A stretch of DNA of 27,744 nucleotides from a bacterium. Lineage in GTDB: Bacteria > Blakebacterota > Blakebacteria > Blakebacterales > Blakebacteraceae. Positions 4,117-23,255 of this stretch are shown here, piece after piece. Positions within the stretch are counted from its first letter, which is position 1. Each line of letters begins with the position of its first letter. The position numbers and the translations under genes were made by a program. Below the pieces are notes generated by a model. It ran no database searches. It worked only from the letters and a program-made list of their open reading frames with translations, and had not been told where the DNA came from. The DNA lies in contig JALGVQ010000005.1 of assembly GCA_025774615.1 (NCBI GenBank), forward strand, positions 1 through 27,744, read 5' to 3'.

Positions 4117-4700
4117 GTATCCGCAGTTTCGTGGCACTGCCCATCCCCGGGAATATCAGATCCCACCTGGCCCGACTTCACGAGTCGGTACCACATTCAG
4201 CAGGTCAGGTCACGTGGGTCAGGGCCGAGGCGATCCATCTCACGTGCGTGTTCCTCGGTGATATCGAAGAGGAGCAGGTAGATCCGATCACTGCGGCGCT
4301 CGAAGAGGCAGCGAGCGGCATGGAATCGTTCGTCACCTGTCTCGATGGTGTGGGAGCCTTCCCGAACTTCAGGAATCCCCGGACTGTCTGGGTGGGGTAT
4401 GAGGAGGGAGCGAGCGAGGTCGTGGAACTCAAACGCCGTGTAGACAGGGTCCTCGAGCCTCTGGGATTCGAACCGGATCAGCGCAGGTTCCATCCGCACG
4501 TGACCCTCGGACTGGTGAAGAAACGGGGGAACGCGAAGGAATTCGAGAAGGCGGCCGCTGCCTGGGTACTTCCGTTCGAGAACTGGATCACCCGCAACAT
4601 GATCCTCTTTCAGAGCGAACTGACGAAACACGGCCCGATCTATACGCCATTGGCCCATATACCGATGTCAGACCCCGGAAGTAGTGTAGAGCGAAGATAA
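4113..4700 (+). CDS. thpR: RNA 2',3'-cyclic phosphodiesterase (2H/LigT family)
   Basis: The product is 195 aa, a 2H phosphoesterase that opens 2',3'-cyclic phosphate ends of RNA and can ligate tRNA halves in vitro in some family members. Both catalytic H-x-T motifs are present: H42-L-T44 followed by C-V-F-L-G, and H129-V-T131 followed by L-G-L-V-K. The N terminus R-S-F-V-A-L-P-I-P matches the family. The ATG overlaps the cinA TGA by 4 bp (ATGA). cinA-thpR-recA order recurs in several phyla, so the placement supports the call. It is the last gene before the recA promoter. Confidence 0.93.
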
Positions 4701-4774: not shown

Positions 4775-4861
4775 CAGCATCCAATCCGATCCCCCCGTGA
4801 CATGCAGGAAAACCCATCCGGGATCACCGGGCGGAAGCTGAGGCAGGGAGGAACTACTCGC

Positions 4862-13961: not shown

Positions 13962-14156
13962 TGCTTGCCGATCTCCTCGAGAGGTGGATTCCTTTCGAGG
14001 ATTATGCTCTCCCCCCCCGACAAGCTGCGCACCCCTGTGAACGGCTGTTCCAGCGTCGCCACGCCTTCCCGGTCGAGCCCGGCGTCACTCCCGGTGCCGA
14101 CATGTGCCGCGTGACATGACACTTCAGTGGGTTTTCGCTGGTCGGAGAGGCAGGCA

Positions 14157-15458
14157 GTGACCCATTATGAGAGCACTATGGTGCTTCCGGCGATGCTGAC
14201 ACTCCGCAGACACTTCACGGCCCCTCGTGAAAATGATCCCGTTGATGCGGTACGTCGTGAACTCACCCGTCTCGATCTCTCCTCCAGGGTGCCGGCAGGC
14301 GGAACAGTGGCAATTCCAGTCGGCAGCCGGGGGATCACCGGGATTACCGCGATCATCGCCTCAACAGTCACATTCCTGAAGGAATCGGGCTTTGCGCCAT
14401 TCATCGTCCCGGCGATGGGGAGCCATGGCGGTGGCACTGCCAGGGGGCAGGTGGAAGTACTCACCTCACTGGGGATCACCGAGGCGAGCATCGGCGCTCC
14501 GATCAGGGCTTCAATGGAGACGGTGGTAGTCGGTTATACGGAACGTGGTCTACCGGTGCATGTAGACAGGCACGCCAATGACGCTGGTGCGATCGTCGTG
14601 ATCAATCGCATAAAGCCGCATACTGAGTTCCAGGGACCGGTTGAGAGCGGATTGCTGAAAATGATGCTCATCGGTCTTGGTAAACTGGAAGGAGCAACGC
14701 TCTACCACAGGGCCGCTGTGCAGAACGGTTTCGCAACACTTGCCGGTGAGGCGGTCCCTGTCGTCATGGCGCAGTCCCGTGTGGTCGGGGGACTGGCGAT
14801 ACTCGAAAACGCCAGAGAAGAGACGGCGCGGATCGAGGCAGTCCCGATCGAGGATATCTTCGATCATGAATCCAGACTGTTGATTGAGGCCACTGAATTG
14901 ATGGCGAAACTGCCGTTCTACCGGGCTGACCTCCTTCTGGTCGATCGTATGGGCAAGAGTATCAGTGGTGCCGGTCTTGACCCGAACGTGACCGGTCGAG
15001 GCGGTCTCGATAACTGGGAAGGGCTGCAGGATCGACGCCCGAAAACCGCCGAGGCGACCCGTCTCGTCGTAAGAGAATTGACACCTGAATCCCACGGTAA
15101 CGCGCTGGGTGTCGGTCTGGTGGATCTCATTCCCCGTCGGCTCGCGGATCAGATCGACTGGGAGAAGACAGGCCTGAATGCCATTACCGCCCTTGTCCCC
15201 TATAAGGGGCGCTGTCCGGTGGTGCTGCCCACTGACAGGGATTGCGTCGAGACTGCGCTCGACACCTGTGGTCTTCGGGAGCCGGAGAACGCGCAGGTTA
15301 TGCATATCGCCGACACACTCCACCTGGGGGTGGTCCGGGTGAGTGAGGCATACCGTCAGGAAGTTGAAGCTCGAGATGATCTGGAGATCGTGGATGAAGG
15401 AGATTTCCTCCGTTTCGACACCAAAGGAAACCTCCTCGATCCGGTACCTGTTACCTGA
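14157..15458 (+). CDS. LarA-like (DUF2088/Lar_N family) protein
   Basis: The product is 433 aa from a GTG at 14157, which has GGAGAGG 6 bp upstream; a GTG at 14127 would add ten residues but lacks such a site. The fold family is that of LarA, the nickel-pincer lactate racemase. Visible are A-M-G-S-H-G-G-G-T with H90 and I-K-P-H-T-E-F with H155, followed by G-P-V-E-S-G-L-L-K, in the places where LarA has its nickel-ligand histidines and cofactor lysine. The motifs are variant, so the substrate may not be lactate. No larB, larC or larE homologue is in the window. It stands alone, divergent from the TPR gene and convergent with the thioredoxin-like gene (27-bp gap). Confidence 0.75.
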   Translation: MTHYESTMVLPAMLTLRRHFTAPRENDPVDAVRRELTRLDLSSRVPAGGTVAIPVGSRGITGITAIIASTVTFLKESGFAPFIVPAMGSHGGGTARGQVEVLTSLGITEASIGAPIRASMETVVVGYTERGLPVHVDRHANDAGAIVVINRIKPHTEFQGPVESGLLKMMLIGLGKLEGATLYHRAAVQNGFATLAGEAVPVVMAQSRVVGGLAILENAREETARIEAVPIEDIFDHESRLLIEATELMAKLPFYRADLLLVDRMGKSISGAGLDPNVTGRGGLDNWEGLQDRRPKTAEATRLVVRELTPESHGNALGVGLVDLIPRRLADQIDWEKTGLNAITALVPYKGRCPVVLPTDRDCVETALDTCGLREPENAQVMHIADTLHLGVVRVSEAYRQEVEARDDLEIVDEGDFLRFDTKGNLLDPVPVT

Positions 15459-17099: not shown

Positions 17100-18887
17100 T
17101 TACCTGAGTGGCACCGTACGACTCACCGTGCCTCCCTTGGTGCTTTCATAGGTGATCGTCACCGAACCGCTTCCACTGACGATCCAGGAAACGGTAACCC
17201 TGTCCCTTCCGGATATTCCGCTCTCGATTGAGATTCGCTCGGGCCGTCTCTCGACGGGGTTCAGTTGCTCGCCGAGCATGCCGGACGGGAATCCTCCCAT
17301 ATGAACGGTGAGGTCATCCCCTTCAATCCCGAAGAAGTCGGGCAATCCGATCCTGTTCTGCCGTGCCGCGTCAGCTCTGGTGGGAATGGCTTTCGGATTC
17401 ATGGCTGTCGCCGTGATCCGCCAGCTGTTCCCCTCGTGCTGTTCGATATCGATGTCGCCAAGTTCAACCATCGGCATCTGATCAGCGTGAAAGATAGCGA
17501 ACATCGCGTTCCGATGACACAGCTCCTGCAGCATGAACGGTGGAGTCATCCGGCCGTAAAATTTCGACCAGCCGCCTACCTCGATGGTGCCGTACGTCGG
17601 GTGATCGACCTCATGCCAGTCCACGTACCAGGCCCCCATACCGACCGCGTCATTGTAGAACAGTTGGCGCTGTTCGTTCGGGATCGGGCTCTCCTCGGTC
17701 CAGGCCTCGTTGTAGTACTGCCGGCTCGACCACAGCTCGTTACTGAAGGTGAAAATCCCCAGATTGTCGAATGTATAGTCGATGAAACCACCGTGGACGG
17801 TATAGAGATCATCCCACAGAACGATGTAATCGTAGTAGGGAAGGATCAATTCAGCCCGCTCCCCGATGTAGTCAAGGGCCTGGCGATCACGGTATGTGTA
17901 TTCACCGCGATCGGCCGATCCGGGACCGCGCAGGATCATCCCGCCGGTGTTGTGCCACGACTGCGCTCCGGCGATATTCGGGTGTGCCAGAAGAAAATCG
18001 GCTACTGCCCGTGATTCAGGATTGCTCAGCGGGTACCAGTGGGCACCTCCCTGAATCCAGTCCGGCTGCCAGTCGGTGGGCCAGTTCCGGTTAAGGTCGT
18101 AACCGCCGGGACCATCTTCGTTGATCCTGCCGTCCCCGTCATTATCGATGCCCTCGGAACCAAGCATGATCCAGTCACCGACTTCTCCCTGCTCGACCGG
18201 TACCATGAGTCTCGAATCGATGTCGCTGACCTTCATCGTCCCTGCGCCCGGCATGTATTTACGCATTTGTACGATATTGCCGTCACCGTCGAGATCGTCG
18301 GAGCCATCCTCGTCGAAACGTCCATCGTTGTCACTGTCGAGCGGTCGGGTCCCGCTTCGGCTGGAAGAACCGGTATTGGCGAACTCGAACCAGTTCTGGG
18401 ACCCATCAGGATTCTGCGTGATAACCACATAGAACGCGCGGGTGTCGACGAGTTCCCTGACCATCGGCAGGGTGTCATAGTTCTCCATGAGGAACCAGAT
18501 CAGGTAGAGGTTCACCTCGATGCCCTGGATCTCGTTTCCGTGAATGCTCCCGTCAACGTAGAAAGCGGTTTTTGCGGTATCGGGGCCGGTATCGGGATTA
18601 TTGATGACAACGCACCGCATGTCGCGCCCTTCCCACGACGTACCGATGATCTCAAGCCGCAGGAACTTTGGAAACGCTTCGATCATCTGATCGATCGCCT
18701 CACCCACCGCGGCGTAATCGTGGTAGCGATCGAAGCGGAGGTTCACTTTCGGATCGGTGATCGGCACATTGAACGGCTGTGCCTGGATAGCAGTGGTAAG
18801 GACCGGGATCAGTGTTCCCGCGATCACCGCGCACCGCAGGGCGCGGGTCATGCCCGAAATCATCTTCCCATGTGTTGTGCCTGGCAT
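17100..18887 (-). CDS. Secreted M14-family zinc carboxypeptidase
   Basis: The product is 595 aa. An N-terminal hydrophobic stretch ending A-I-Q-A-Q (residues about 15-37) is a signal peptide. The M14 zinc motif is H116-G-N-E119, the third ligand is H312 in S-W-H-N, the substrate-binding arginine is R267 in D-L-N-R-N-W, and the catalytic glutamate is E384 in F-S-N-E-L-W; the core looks complete. Two Asp/Gly-rich insertions (about 184-204 and 248-259, D-x-D-x-D-G type) resemble calcium-binding loops. A beta-rich C-terminal domain follows. The ATG lies 2 bp after the stop of the upstream paralogue, with AGGAGG about 10 bp before it. Predicted role: periplasmic or extracellular removal of C-terminal residues from peptides; specificity is unknown. 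Confidence 0.88.
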   Translation of the reverse strand: MPGTTHGKMISGMTRALRCAVIAGTLIPVLTTAIQAQPFNVPITDPKVNLRFDRYHDYAAVGEAIDQMIEAFPKFLRLEIIGTSWEGRDMRCVVINNPDTGPDTAKTAFYVDGSIHGNEIQGIEVNLYLIWFLMENYDTLPMVRELVDTRAFYVVITQNPDGSQNWFEFANTGSSSRSGTRPLDSDNDGRFDEDGSDDLDGDGNIVQMRKYMPGAGTMKVSDIDSRLMVPVEQGEVGDWIMLGSEGIDNDGDGRINEDGPGGYDLNRNWPTDWQPDWIQGGAHWYPLSNPESRAVADFLLAHPNIAGAQSWHNTGGMILRGPGSADRGEYTYRDRQALDYIGERAELILPYYDYIVLWDDLYTVHGGFIDYTFDNLGIFTFSNELWSSRQYYNEAWTEESPIPNEQRQLFYNDAVGMGAWYVDWHEVDHPTYGTIEVGGWSKFYGRMTPPFMLQELCHRNAMFAIFHADQMPMVELGDIDIEQHEGNSWRITATAMNPKAIPTRADAARQNRIGLPDFFGIEGDDLTVHMGGFPSGMLGEQLNPVERRPERISIESGISGRDRVTVSWIVSGSGSVTITYESTKGGTVSRTVPLR

Positions 18888-18889
18888 GA

Positions 18890-20710
18890 TCAGCGGCCCT
18901 CCTGGTTCAGACTGATTGTCACGGATGTCAGACCACCGGCCGCCGGGGCCAGCATTTCAAGGGTCACCCTCGTTCCGGGCGGAGCCTGGACCCGCCACTC
19001 AACCGTAGCTCTTCCGCCACTGCCGTACACATTGCGCACCTGCTGCTGGAGCGGACCCTGGATGAGGACCATTCCATCGACAGGCAGGAGGCGCAGTGTC
19101 ACCGGCTGCACTCTTCGGGTCCGCAGTCCCATCTCCAGGGCCGATGGCAGGTAGCGGTCATTCTGGATGGTGGCCTTGATCTGGTAGTATCCAGGACCAG
19201 TTGCTTCCACTTCAGTATCAACGAGCTGCACATGAGCGGTCTGAGCGCCCAACCAGACTGCGAATCGTGCATGCTGCTCACAGAGATCAGCAATTCTGTC
19301 CACGGGTGGATTCACCCGGGCATTCGGAGCAAATCCGCCGACTTCGACGTCGCCCAGATCGGGATGGTTTGCCGGGGTCCAATCCACGAATCCTTCAATA
19401 CCGTTCGACTCGAACCACTGGAGCCACTGCTGGTCTTCACTTGTCCCGTTCCTGCGCGCGAGGGCCGCTATCCTTGCTCTGGGAATGTCATCAGATGAGG
19501 TACCCGGTTGTTCGCCATCATCTTCTGAAGTCAGCGTCCATACCGGGGTGGTGAAGGAGGGAAGACCGAGCTGGTAGTATGCGAACTGGGGCCATGAACC
19601 CGCTTCGCCGGATGCTCCCTTGCCGGAAAGACCAGTCATTTCCCTGAAGCGTTCGGAGATGAAACGGTAATATGGTGCATCCTGCGAAAGGATCGAAGTC
19701 GGTGCCTTACGCTCCCGGAAATACTCCATCACCTCTTCCATGCTGACGCCTGGAGGAAGTTCCAGACCCTCCGGGATGTTCACCGGAGCTTCCCGCTCGA
19801 ATCCCGCTTCGGGAGAGGTGATCAGATTGTCGTAGGGGCTGAACGTCAGGGCCATCACCAGGTTGCGATGTGTGAAGGCAAAGTCGGCGAGCGCGCGTGT
19901 CTCGATCTCGGAAACCTGGTTTATCCCGGCATGGTCCTGGTAATAGGGGTACTGGTGCGGCCAGTTGTGATTGAGATGGGTTCCACCGAGACCGTCCTCA
20001 TTATACTCTCCATCAGCGTCGTCATCGACTCCCTCGGTATAGATCGTGTAGATACCACGCTCACCCCGGGTTCGATCAGCACGCTTGAGCAATCTCGGTT
20101 CATCGGGATCGACCATCCATATTCCATCGGGATCCCGAACCCGCATCTTCGTCACCAGTCCGTCTCCATTGATGTCATCGCCGGGATCTTCATCAGCGCT
20201 GCCATCCCGGTCATCATCTTCCGGGTCTGCTTTCCACGGCATTTCGGTCCCCGCCTGCGACCAGTAGAGTTCAGCGCCGTCAGGGTTGAGACGCGGCACC
20301 ACATAGATGGTGTGGGTATTGATCAGATCGGTTATCGCCGGTTCGGTTTCATACCCGTTCGCCAGATAATCGACCAGGTAGAGAGCCGCCATGCTTCCGA
20401 TCAGGTGGTTCCCCTCGATGTTGGCGACGACCAGCAGTCCCGGATTTGTAGCGGCGTGACCATTATTCGGATTGCCGATCGTCACCATCCAGAGGTCATG
20501 CCCGCCAGTGGTGACAGCCATACTTTCGAGAGTGCAGAGATCGTGGTGAGATTCCACGATGCTCTGCAGTCTTGCAGTGAGGTCTGTGTGGTTCAGGTAC
20601 GCGTCATACGAGCCGGTCTGGGCCAGCAGTGTGCCGCTGAGAGTCGGCAGAACCAGGATGAGAAATCCTGCTGCCAGAGTCGGTATCGCAATTGATCGGA
20701 ACAGCTTCAT
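18890..20710 (-). CDS. Secreted M14-fold protein with degenerate active site (probable pseudopeptidase)
   Basis: The product is 606 aa from the ATG at 20710, which has AGGAGA 8 bp upstream; an ATG at 20740 would add ten residues with no such site. The signal peptide is residues 1-30 (ending T-L-L-A-Q). It aligns along its length with the downstream M14 enzyme, but the motifs differ: H-G-N-E is E99-G-N-H102, the third ligand His is S291, the Arg is H248 (H-L-N-H-N-W) and the catalytic Glu is P389 (F-T-T-P-V-W). Asp-rich calcium-loop-like segments near 163-184 and 229-240 are kept. Catalysis by the usual mechanism looks impossible. It is translated just upstream of the intact copy, as if the two act together. 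Alternatively it has a different catalytic use. Confidence 0.82.
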   Translation of the reverse strand: MKLFRSIAIPTLAAGFLILVLPTLSGTLLAQTGSYDAYLNHTDLTARLQSIVESHHDLCTLESMAVTTGGHDLWMVTIGNPNNGHAATNPGLLVVANIEGNHLIGSMAALYLVDYLANGYETEPAITDLINTHTIYVVPRLNPDGAELYWSQAGTEMPWKADPEDDDRDGSADEDPGDDINGDGLVTKMRVRDPDGIWMVDPDEPRLLKRADRTRGERGIYTIYTEGVDDDADGEYNEDGLGGTHLNHNWPHQYPYYQDHAGINQVSEIETRALADFAFTHRNLVMALTFSPYDNLITSPEAGFEREAPVNIPEGLELPPGVSMEEVMEYFRERKAPTSILSQDAPYYRFISERFREMTGLSGKGASGEAGSWPQFAYYQLGLPSFTTPVWTLTSEDDGEQPGTSSDDIPRARIAALARRNGTSEDQQWLQWFESNGIEGFVDWTPANHPDLGDVEVGGFAPNARVNPPVDRIADLCEQHARFAVWLGAQTAHVQLVDTEVEATGPGYYQIKATIQNDRYLPSALEMGLRTRRVQPVTLRLLPVDGMVLIQGPLQQQVRNVYGSGGRATVEWRVQAPPGTRVTLEMLAPAAGGLTSVTISLNQEGR

Positions 20711-20783
20711 ACCGGTGTTCTCCTTGGACGTTGCCCCCATGCATGTTCAGAAACTGTAACATATTAACATAACTAATCACTAC

Positions 20784-20915: not shown

Positions 20916-23255
20916 ATGCACATGATGAAACGAAGTATCCGGACGATCGCACTCAACCTTGTGTTGATAGCGATCGTAGCTCCAGCCGTATCCGGACAAC
21001 AGGTCCATATCGTGCCCGGTCCGGGGCATGAACATCCACACGCCATCTATCTGGCCTCGGCCAATCTGAATGTCGAGATCAGGGGCGGGGTAGCCCATTC
21101 AACCCTGACACAGGTGTTCGCCAACCCGAATGAATGGCAGGCTGAGGGGGTATATCTCTTTCCATTGCCGGAGGGCGCGGCAGTCACTGATTTCCGTCTG
21201 ACGATGGATGGTATTCCAGTGCGGGGTGAAGTGCTCGATCGGGAACAGGCCAGAAATATATACCTGGATATCGTTCGGCGGATCCGTGATCCGGCTCTGC
21301 TCGAATGGATCAACAACAGGGTGTTTCAGGCACGCATCTTCCCGTTCGACCCGGGTGGCGAACGTACCCTGACACTTTCTTATGCCCAGATCCTGCCCAG
21401 GGAAGGTGATTTCCATGTGTTCCGGTATCTCACCGGACAGGGCAGGATGGCTGCTCCCTCCCGGATCATAGCCCGTCGGGAACCGGGGATCGTACCACTT
21501 CTCGATCAGCAGCCTGGTCGCGCTCAAGTGGTTGCACCCGCTCGGGCCGGCGATCACCTGAGAAGAAGTACTACCTTTGTTGTAGAAGGAACCATCAGGG
21601 AAGACCGCCCGATAAGATCGGTCTATTCCCCCACGCACCCGTTGAGTGTTGAGCACCTGGAGGAGGGTACGCTGGCCACGTTCTCGGCCGAAGGAACGCT
21701 CTACAGCAGGGAGGGGTTCTCACTCTATTACGGCAGTGGAGAGCAGAATGACATCGGCATGGGTATGCTCTCCCATCGTCCCCCCGGCGAGGAGGGGTTT
21801 TTCCTGCTGACGATCAATCCCGGCCGGATCGCCCGCCGCGAGATCCTGCCGAGAGATGTCGTCTTTGTGCTGGATACCTCAGGCTCCATGCGGGGAGACC
21901 GGAAGCTGGAGCAGGCCATCGAGGCGCTCGATTTCGGGTTGAGCACACTCGGTGCGAACGATCGTTTTGCGCTGGTGATCTACAACAGTTCGATCCGGGC
22001 CTGGCGGGATGAGCTCGCGGATGCTGACAGACGTGCTGTGGCGGATGCCCGGGAGTTCATCAAACGGCTCACTGCCGAAGGCGGGACCAATATCGAGGGA
22101 GCGCTCGCCGCTTCTGTCGACTTCGCCTCGGAGTCAGTAGAGCAGAACGGTAACGGATCGCACCTTACTTATGTGGTATTCCTGACCGATGGTCTGGCTA
22201 CCGTCGGCGAGACCCGGCCCGATGTGCTTCTGGAACAGGCTGAGGAAGGTTTGCCAGCGTCTGTGCGACTCTTTACCTGGGGCGTCGGCTATGACGTGAA
22301 CGCCTATCTGCTCGACCGTCTGGCTACCGAACATGGCGGACATTCGGCATATGTCGAACCGATGGAGGATCTGGAAGTCAAGGTCAGCGCTTTCTTCAGC
22401 CGGGTGAGTACACCGGTACTCTCTGACCTGGAGATCGAGGTCGTCGGAGCCGATACCTGGGACCTCTTCCCGGCTGAGCTCCCCGATCTGTTCGAAGGAA
22501 CGGAGATCACGGTGATGGGCCGATACCGTGGCAATGGACGGGCGGAAGTGAGGCTGACCGGCAGAATGGCCGGCCGGGAGCACACGGTCCGTCATCCGGT
22601 GGAACTCCCTCGACGATATTCCGAGGCGGCGTTCCTCGCGCCGATGTGGGCGCAGCGAAAAGTGGGGTTCCTGCTCGAGCAGATCCGCCTCCATGGTGAA
22701 TCGGAAGAACTGAAGGATGAAGTTGTGCGTTTGGGAGAGAAATTCGGGATCGTTACTCCCTACACCGCTTACCTTGTTATCGAGGAGCACATGCTTCAGG
22801 CCATGGAAGCCCAGGCAGTGAGTACGACCGCTCCGGCGGTTGTCCAGGCGTCCATGAGGATGGCGCGGGAGTCGATCCAGGCCCGTACCAGCGCTGATGC
22901 GTCTCTTTATGGAGGCAGAGCCGGAGCGCAGCAGCAGACTGGAGCCGGCGATATCTCCCTGAGTGTTGCTGAAAAGGAACTCCAGACCTCGAGTCTGATT
23001 AATCGGGTCGATTTTCTCAGTATGCAGCGGGTGGGAGAGAAGACCTTCCAGCTTGACCAGGAAAAGCAGATATGGCGGGATCAGGCGATCAAAGCTGAGG
23101 CAGAGGTAATCGAGGTGGAGATCGGAAGCCGTGAGTTTCTGAGGCTCCTCGATCGGCATGAATCGCTGGCGCGCTACATCGCGATGGGGGAACAGGTCGA
23201 AATCCTCCTCGGCGATCAGGCGTACCGTCTCGTGCTGCCTGACGATCGGTCCTGA
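20916..23255 (+). CDS. Secreted VIT and VWA domain protein
   Basis: The product is 779 aa from an ATG with GGAGG 6 bp upstream. A signal peptide covers residues about 1-28 (ending A-V-S-G-Q-Q). A VIT domain spans about 45-165 (V-Y-L-F-P-L-P-E-G-A-A-V, then F-Q-A-R-I-F-P-F). The VWA domain (about 313-490) has an intact metal-ion-dependent adhesion site, D320-T-S-G-S-M, and the later F-L-T-D-G. The C-terminal third (Y-S-E-A-A-F-L-A-P-M-W-A-Q-R-K-V, then T-P-Y-T-A-Y-L-V) is as in bacterial inter-alpha-trypsin-inhibitor-like proteins. There is no LPxTG motif or C-terminal membrane helix, so it is probably periplasmic or released. VWA proteins bind partners through the metal site; the partner is unknown. 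It is divergent from the M14 cluster. Confidence 0.88.
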   Translation: MHMMKRSIRTIALNLVLIAIVAPAVSGQQVHIVPGPGHEHPHAIYLASANLNVEIRGGVAHSTLTQVFANPNEWQAEGVYLFPLPEGAAVTDFRLTMDGIPVRGEVLDREQARNIYLDIVRRIRDPALLEWINNRVFQARIFPFDPGGERTLTLSYAQILPREGDFHVFRYLTGQGRMAAPSRIIARREPGIVPLLDQQPGRAQVVAPARAGDHLRRSTTFVVEGTIREDRPIRSVYSPTHPLSVEHLEEGTLATFSAEGTLYSREGFSLYYGSGEQNDIGMGMLSHRPPGEEGFFLLTINPGRIARREILPRDVVFVLDTSGSMRGDRKLEQAIEALDFGLSTLGANDRFALVIYNSSIRAWRDELADADRRAVADAREFIKRLTAEGGTNIEGALAASVDFASESVEQNGNGSHLTYVVFLTDGLATVGETRPDVLLEQAEEGLPASVRLFTWGVGYDVNAYLLDRLATEHGGHSAYVEPMEDLEVKVSAFFSRVSTPVLSDLEIEVVGADTWDLFPAELPDLFEGTEITVMGRYRGNGRAEVRLTGRMAGREHTVRHPVELPRRYSEAAFLAPMWAQRKVGFLLEQIRLHGESEELKDEVVRLGEKFGIVTPYTAYLVIEEHMLQAMEAQAVSTTAPAVVQASMRMARESIQARTSADASLYGGRAGAQQQTGAGDISLSVAEKELQTSSLINRVDFLSMQRVGEKTFQLDQEKQIWRDQAIKAEAEVIEVEIGSREFLRLLDRHESLARYIAMGEQVEILLGDQAYRLVLPDDRS

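Follow-up and report, generated by a model that had tools for sequence, protein, structure and literature searches.

Why would a bacterium keep, directly beside an apparently intact carboxypeptidase gene, a homolog whose catalytic residues have been replaced? The question is raised by two M14 genes on the minus strand of the window, that is, the whole stretch of 27,744 nucleotides analysed here. The first in order of transcription, termed P (18890–20740; 616 aa, with an alternative start at 20710), encodes a predicted secreted M14 pseudo-carboxypeptidase, and the second, A (17100–18887; 595 aa), a predicted secreted zinc carboxypeptidase of family M14 whose active site is complete. Just 2 bp (18888–18889) lie between the stop codon of P and the start codon of A, and short or overlapping junctions are the rule across the family. 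Both ORFs and their spacing agree with a preliminary description of the locus, which numbered the residues of P from the second Met (20710), 10 below the numbering of the 616-aa ORF used here.

Both products match Pfam PF00246 (E = 5.4e-36 for A; 2.9e-30, 106 bits, for P), and neither matched any NCBIfam model. Judged by eye, both N-termini resemble Sec signal peptides without a lipobox, in keeping with the signal peptides described previously, and no prodomain is obvious in the sequence of A between the signal peptide and the catalytic domain. AlphaFold2 modelled P with a pLDDT of 86.5 and a pTM of 0.86, and A with a pLDDT of 85.8. The model of P aligned with carboxypeptidase T at a Z score of 32.8 (296 residues, 2.8 Å), so that the full M14 fold is kept, as had been proposed for P.

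The catalytic residues were compared by MAFFT alignment (fast setting) of 123 A and 119 P proteins, 116 of the latter being full-length. Window A possesses H116, E119, R177, N266, R267, H312, Y362 and E384, all of them unchanged or almost unchanged across the A clade, and its H-G-N-E zinc motif (residues 116–119) lies at 18531–18542 on the minus strand. Equivalents of the zinc ligands (H69, E72, H196) and of the general base E270 are complete in all 123 A-clade proteins, window A included, and the substrate residues are nearly as constant, with the R127 equivalent (R177) found in 121 and the N144, R145 and Y248 equivalents each found in 122 of the 123. Going by this complete set of catalytic and substrate residues, A can be classed as an M14 zinc carboxypeptidase.

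The P clade presents the opposite picture, since the zinc triad is complete in none of its 119 proteins. In the window, residues 109–112 of P (20405–20416, minus strand) read E-G-N-H in place of H-x-x-E, and the alignment bore out the exchange of H116 and E119 of A for E109 and H112 (E99 and H102 in the earlier numbering), as well as the replacement of H312 by S301 (formerly S291) and of E384 by P399 (formerly P389). The further claim that R267 becomes His (H258, formerly H248) is right for window P but not in general, as R is kept in a congener (L050) and an R145-type residue persists in 80 of the 116 full-length P proteins; an N144-type residue persists in 79. Across these 116 proteins, the first zinc-ligand position is acidic in 99 (Glu in 70, Asp in 29), the second is His in 58, and the third is Gly or Ser in 93, while the general base is replaced mainly by Pro, Asn, Arg or Asp, Pro being the commonest (43). 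The motif at the zinc site is EGDH in 25 proteins and EGNH and EANH in 4 each, with EGDR, DGRT, QAQQ and NADY among the other variants. Thus, the idea of the E-G-N-H form as a conserved clade stands only in part: the P clade is conserved, but its rule is loss of the active site, with the exact His/Glu exchange common rather than universal. Every catalytic residue that had been named as replaced in window P is indeed replaced, and two that had not been named are gone too, since the R127 equivalent falls inside a deletion in 116 of 116 P proteins and the Y248 equivalent (A Y362) is also absent. An Arg in an "M-R-K" stretch was considered as the R127 equivalent and dropped, as it varies to Trp or Phe in A; R177 was preferred because it is invariant and lies 15 residues after NPDG, and because of this better fit a claim that P keeps R127 was withdrawn.

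Loss of catalysis has not meant loss of the gene. Among close pairs, dN/dS was 0.06–0.35 for P and 0.03–0.24 for A, and between the window and its congener it was 0.11 and 0.09, respectively, values that are approximate given a dS above 1. P does evolve faster than A, with a median pairwise identity of 0.32 versus 0.45, but it is not evolving neutrally. A pseudogene was rejected in view of purifying selection and wide conservation, and a sequencing artefact and a chance tandem duplication in one genome were likewise rejected. Considering its M14 homology and fold, its missing catalytic residues and the selection acting on its gene, P is an M14 pseudopeptidase.

A tree of 94 proteins, built with the quick search of IQ-TREE and with support from SH-aLRT only, places A on one side of a branch (support 96) and P, together with three divergent Q proteins, on one side of another (support 100). 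Many sub-branches match between the P and A sides, which fits a single ancestral pair inherited as a unit. Moreover, across 103 pairs the identities among P proteins track those among their A partners (r = 0.84 between the two matrices), and no permutation out of 1000 exceeded 0.12; this correlation speaks for co-inheritance rather than contact, because shared phylogeny alone would also give a high value.

The linkage of the two genes was assessed from the side of A. A profile of A alone (A3) served to search 84,980 species genomes, from which the 80 top-scoring loci were retained, P playing no part in the search, although the profile had been built from A proteins with a P partner and so favours their nearest kin. 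Of these 80 loci, 77 have P upstream in the same orientation, 74 of them found by automatic pairing and three (L203, L272, L275) by tblastn. Two of the remaining loci (L214, L259) are cut by a contig end, and hence P is upstream in 77 of 78 informative loci, in one of them (L233) only as a remnant 1.1 kb away at the contig edge. The sole exception, L257, has no P nearby but carries one on another contig of its genome. Seen from the other side, 138 P pieces are followed immediately by A in 118 cases, lie near A in 9, abut a contig edge in 5 and have no A in 6, and lone P genes are few (L147, L169, L191). P is clearly not a gene that mostly occurs alone. When P was used by itself as a single-sequence query against the genome contigs, no match was returned. 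Two P genes from Planctomycetota MAGs carry a single in-frame stop (L250, TAG at 4606–4608; L266, TAA at 4776–4778), reflecting either sequencing error or decay of P.

Among 116 measured junctions, the two genes overlap in 49, by exactly 4 bp in 37, and are separated by 0–35 nt in another 47. Strict co-translation is not required, however, because an htpG-like (Hsp90) gene on the opposite strand intervenes between P and A in one family of the phylum of genome G047 (L165, L167, L168, L158), and because P and A are unlinked in a few genomes. No natural P-A fusion was present among ORFs longer than 780 aa. Clustering of four genes on each side of the pairs gave no functional hint, as families were confined to at most 9 loci each and held no fixed position, leaving the pair itself as the conserved unit. 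In the window, a VIT and VWA domain protein (20916–23255, plus strand) is divergent from the pair and recurs beside no other, and a nickel pincer cofactor-dependent isomerase of group 22 is encoded at 14127–15458 (plus strand; NF052515, score exceeding the cut-off).

The P form is far from unique to this genome, with 116 full-length P proteins distributed over many phyla. The order P then A occurs twice in the window genome, in a congener where the pair is split over two contigs (L050, L051), and in distant genomes (L059, L061, L062). It recurs repeatedly in 6 genomes of the phylum of G057, 82 of the phylum of G047 and 10 of the phylum of G018, as well as in a domain-wide sample of 386 genomes. 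In the 82 genomes, approximately 30 have both genes, 2 have P only, 1 has A only and approximately 49 have neither. The best 80 loci of the A profile lie in Gemmatimonadota, Bacteroidota, Rhodothermales, Planctomycetota, Acidobacteria, Aminicenantes, Opitutaceae and one gammaproteobacterial MAG, and the phyla with P directly upstream of A include Gemmatimonadota, Bacteroidota, Rhodothermota, Planctomycetota, Acidobacteriota/Aminicenantes, Verrucomicrobiota and others. A conserved genetic partnership of P and A is therefore close to certain, and the partnership proposed in the preliminary description is supported.

The window genome (G000; 3.3 Mb in 324 contigs, 82% complete) carries many further M14 genes, its 30 PF00246 matches, some of which are pieces of one gene, amounting to a large M14 expansion. 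Its second P-A pair (L045, 4693–8360, contig C175) is nearest in the tree to a Gemmatimonadota pair, not to that of the window, so that the genome holds two separately descended pairs. Another two-gene M14 tandem occurs in the window genus and family (L048, L053, L063) and keeps the active-site residues in both members. In yet another (L199, 6510–10665; L198, 3405–5624), the leading gene looks active and is followed by a pseudo gene with the zinc motif Q-G-D-E, so that active/dead pairing may have arisen here independently within M14.

What P contributes is suggested by where it has kept and lost constraint. The claim that the Asp-rich loops are retained holds, conservation being 0.73 in both P and A (P 182–201), and the segment 462–481 is similar (0.63 in P, 0.64 in A). 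These loops presumably bind calcium, going by their D-x-D-x-D-G pattern. In contrast, the old active-site segments have lost much of their conservation in P relative to A (302–321, 0.43 versus 0.88; 102–121, 0.55 versus 0.80; 362–381, 0.36 versus 0.69), and certain sites are more conserved in P than in A (Y388, F451, W454, G272, S277, E278 and W582). For a subunit, constraint would be expected on the overall fold, on the loops presumed to bind calcium and on a contact surface away from the cleft. Loss of cleft conservation alongside retention of the Asp-rich loops thus makes a non-catalytic subunit more likely than a peptide receptor. The latter, one of three roles previously suggested for P (partner, inhibitor or receptor), would have P use the old substrate cleft to bind peptides, as receptor or decoy, without cutting them. 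About two-thirds of P proteins do keep the carboxylate-binding residues of the N144 and R145 type counted above. Such a receptor ought to have preserved the cleft, though, and the cleft segments show the greatest loss of conservation relative to A; besides, the R127 and Y248 equivalents are absent and window P has His for R145. For these reasons, a receptor is quite improbable. Less probable still is that P works as an enzyme in its own right, its active site having been rebuilt, for instance around a new metal bound by the exchanged Glu and His. The prevalence of an acidic first position and of His at the second could be read in this way, but the usual Gly or Ser at the third ligand position, the replaced general base and a freely varying motif make it a very remote prospect.

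Linkage and co-inheritance would fit just as well if P were an inhibitor, a folding chaperone or a substitute prodomain that binds A during export, silences it in the envelope and dissociates afterwards. In favor of this, no prodomain is obvious in A, and P, always the first gene of the pair, would be made first. P is nevertheless full length with an intact fold, its deeply conserved loops lie away from any active-site plug, and its sequence bears no mark of transience; we regard such a role as unlikely, if less so than a receptor. It could also be argued that P and A are independent secreted proteins of one pathway that are merely co-transcribed, for operon linkage by itself is no proof of contact and unlinked cases exist. 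Against this stand the homology of P and A, the lack of any third gene sharing the operon across phyla, so that no wider pathway is visible, and an association that outlasts the loss of linkage; we consider independent action slightly less plausible than a receptor, though not as far-fetched as a rebuilt enzyme.

The reading that we prefer, and consider reasonably probable, is that of an ancient module in which A is the enzyme and P is retained as a dedicated non-catalytic partner. P would have arisen by an M14 duplication and lost catalysis before the sampled lineages diverged. The two proteins would then be translationally coupled, exported and assembled into a heterodimer, in which P could stabilise A or shape access to its active site, a role comparable to that of TldE toward TldD and of the inactive half toward the active half in M16 peptidases. 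We infer that a physical heterodimer best explains the data and that the activity of A depends on P. A stronger version, in which the pair represents an obligate secreted heterodimeric class of carboxypeptidases, widespread in bacterial phyla, in which the live member would owe its activity or specificity to the dead M14 subunit, is offered tentatively, as an idea that might hold but falls a little short of probable.

Inactive enzyme copies are commonly written off as paralogues, and here one has been retained beside its live sister across phylum-deep divergences. The pair would thus make a clean, portable system for the role of a pseudoenzyme toward its active relative, and assays of A by itself may give a misleading view of the M14 activity of the natural enzyme. 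Active/dead pairs of metallopeptidases are already known from TldD/E and M16, and the M14 case is undescribed in the literature that was searched; coverage of subscription journals was thin, and a bacterial M14 active/pseudo pair might be described there.

Among known systems, carboxypeptidase T, a bacterial M14A enzyme (1obr and mutants), offers the closest solved fold to P and is among the closest to P and A by sequence. It differs in being active, single and approximately 320 aa long, whereas P and A add an Asp-rich insertion and a C-terminal beta domain. The M14 pseudopeptidases that have been reviewed come from vertebrates, Drosophila and yeast, with no bacterial examples (PMC11266112). 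Domain III of CPD, AEBP1/ACLP, CPXM1/2 and Ecm14 resemble P in keeping the M14 fold without the catalytic residues, and CPD combines active with inactive M14 domains within a single polypeptide; several of these proteins retain H69/E72, unlike P, in which the zinc triad is never complete (PMC11266112). In the two-part M16 peptidases, both halves are needed and the active-site residues typically reside in one (PMC12731061). Their catalytic and non-catalytic homologous halves, including those of the mitochondrial processing peptidase, parallel A and P (PMC12731061, PMC11266112), although M16 enzymes are clam-shell endopeptidases with another fold and an HxxEH zinc motif. TldE likewise lacks any metal ligand, and activity is reported only with TldD and TldE both present (PMC5810440). 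P and A do not belong to that family (PmbA/TldD), for they match only PF00246 in Pfam and the motif of A is HxxE, not HExxxH; the folds are unrelated, P and A both carry apparent signal peptides, and the need of A for P would be the counterpart of what was seen with TldD and TldE. The likeness lies in the arrangement, an active metallopeptidase and a homologous partner devoid of metal ligands (PMC5810440). P and A are encoded as a conserved tandem pair and co-inherited, and an obligate P-A heterodimer, if real, would be the so far unnoticed M14 counterpart of TldD/E.
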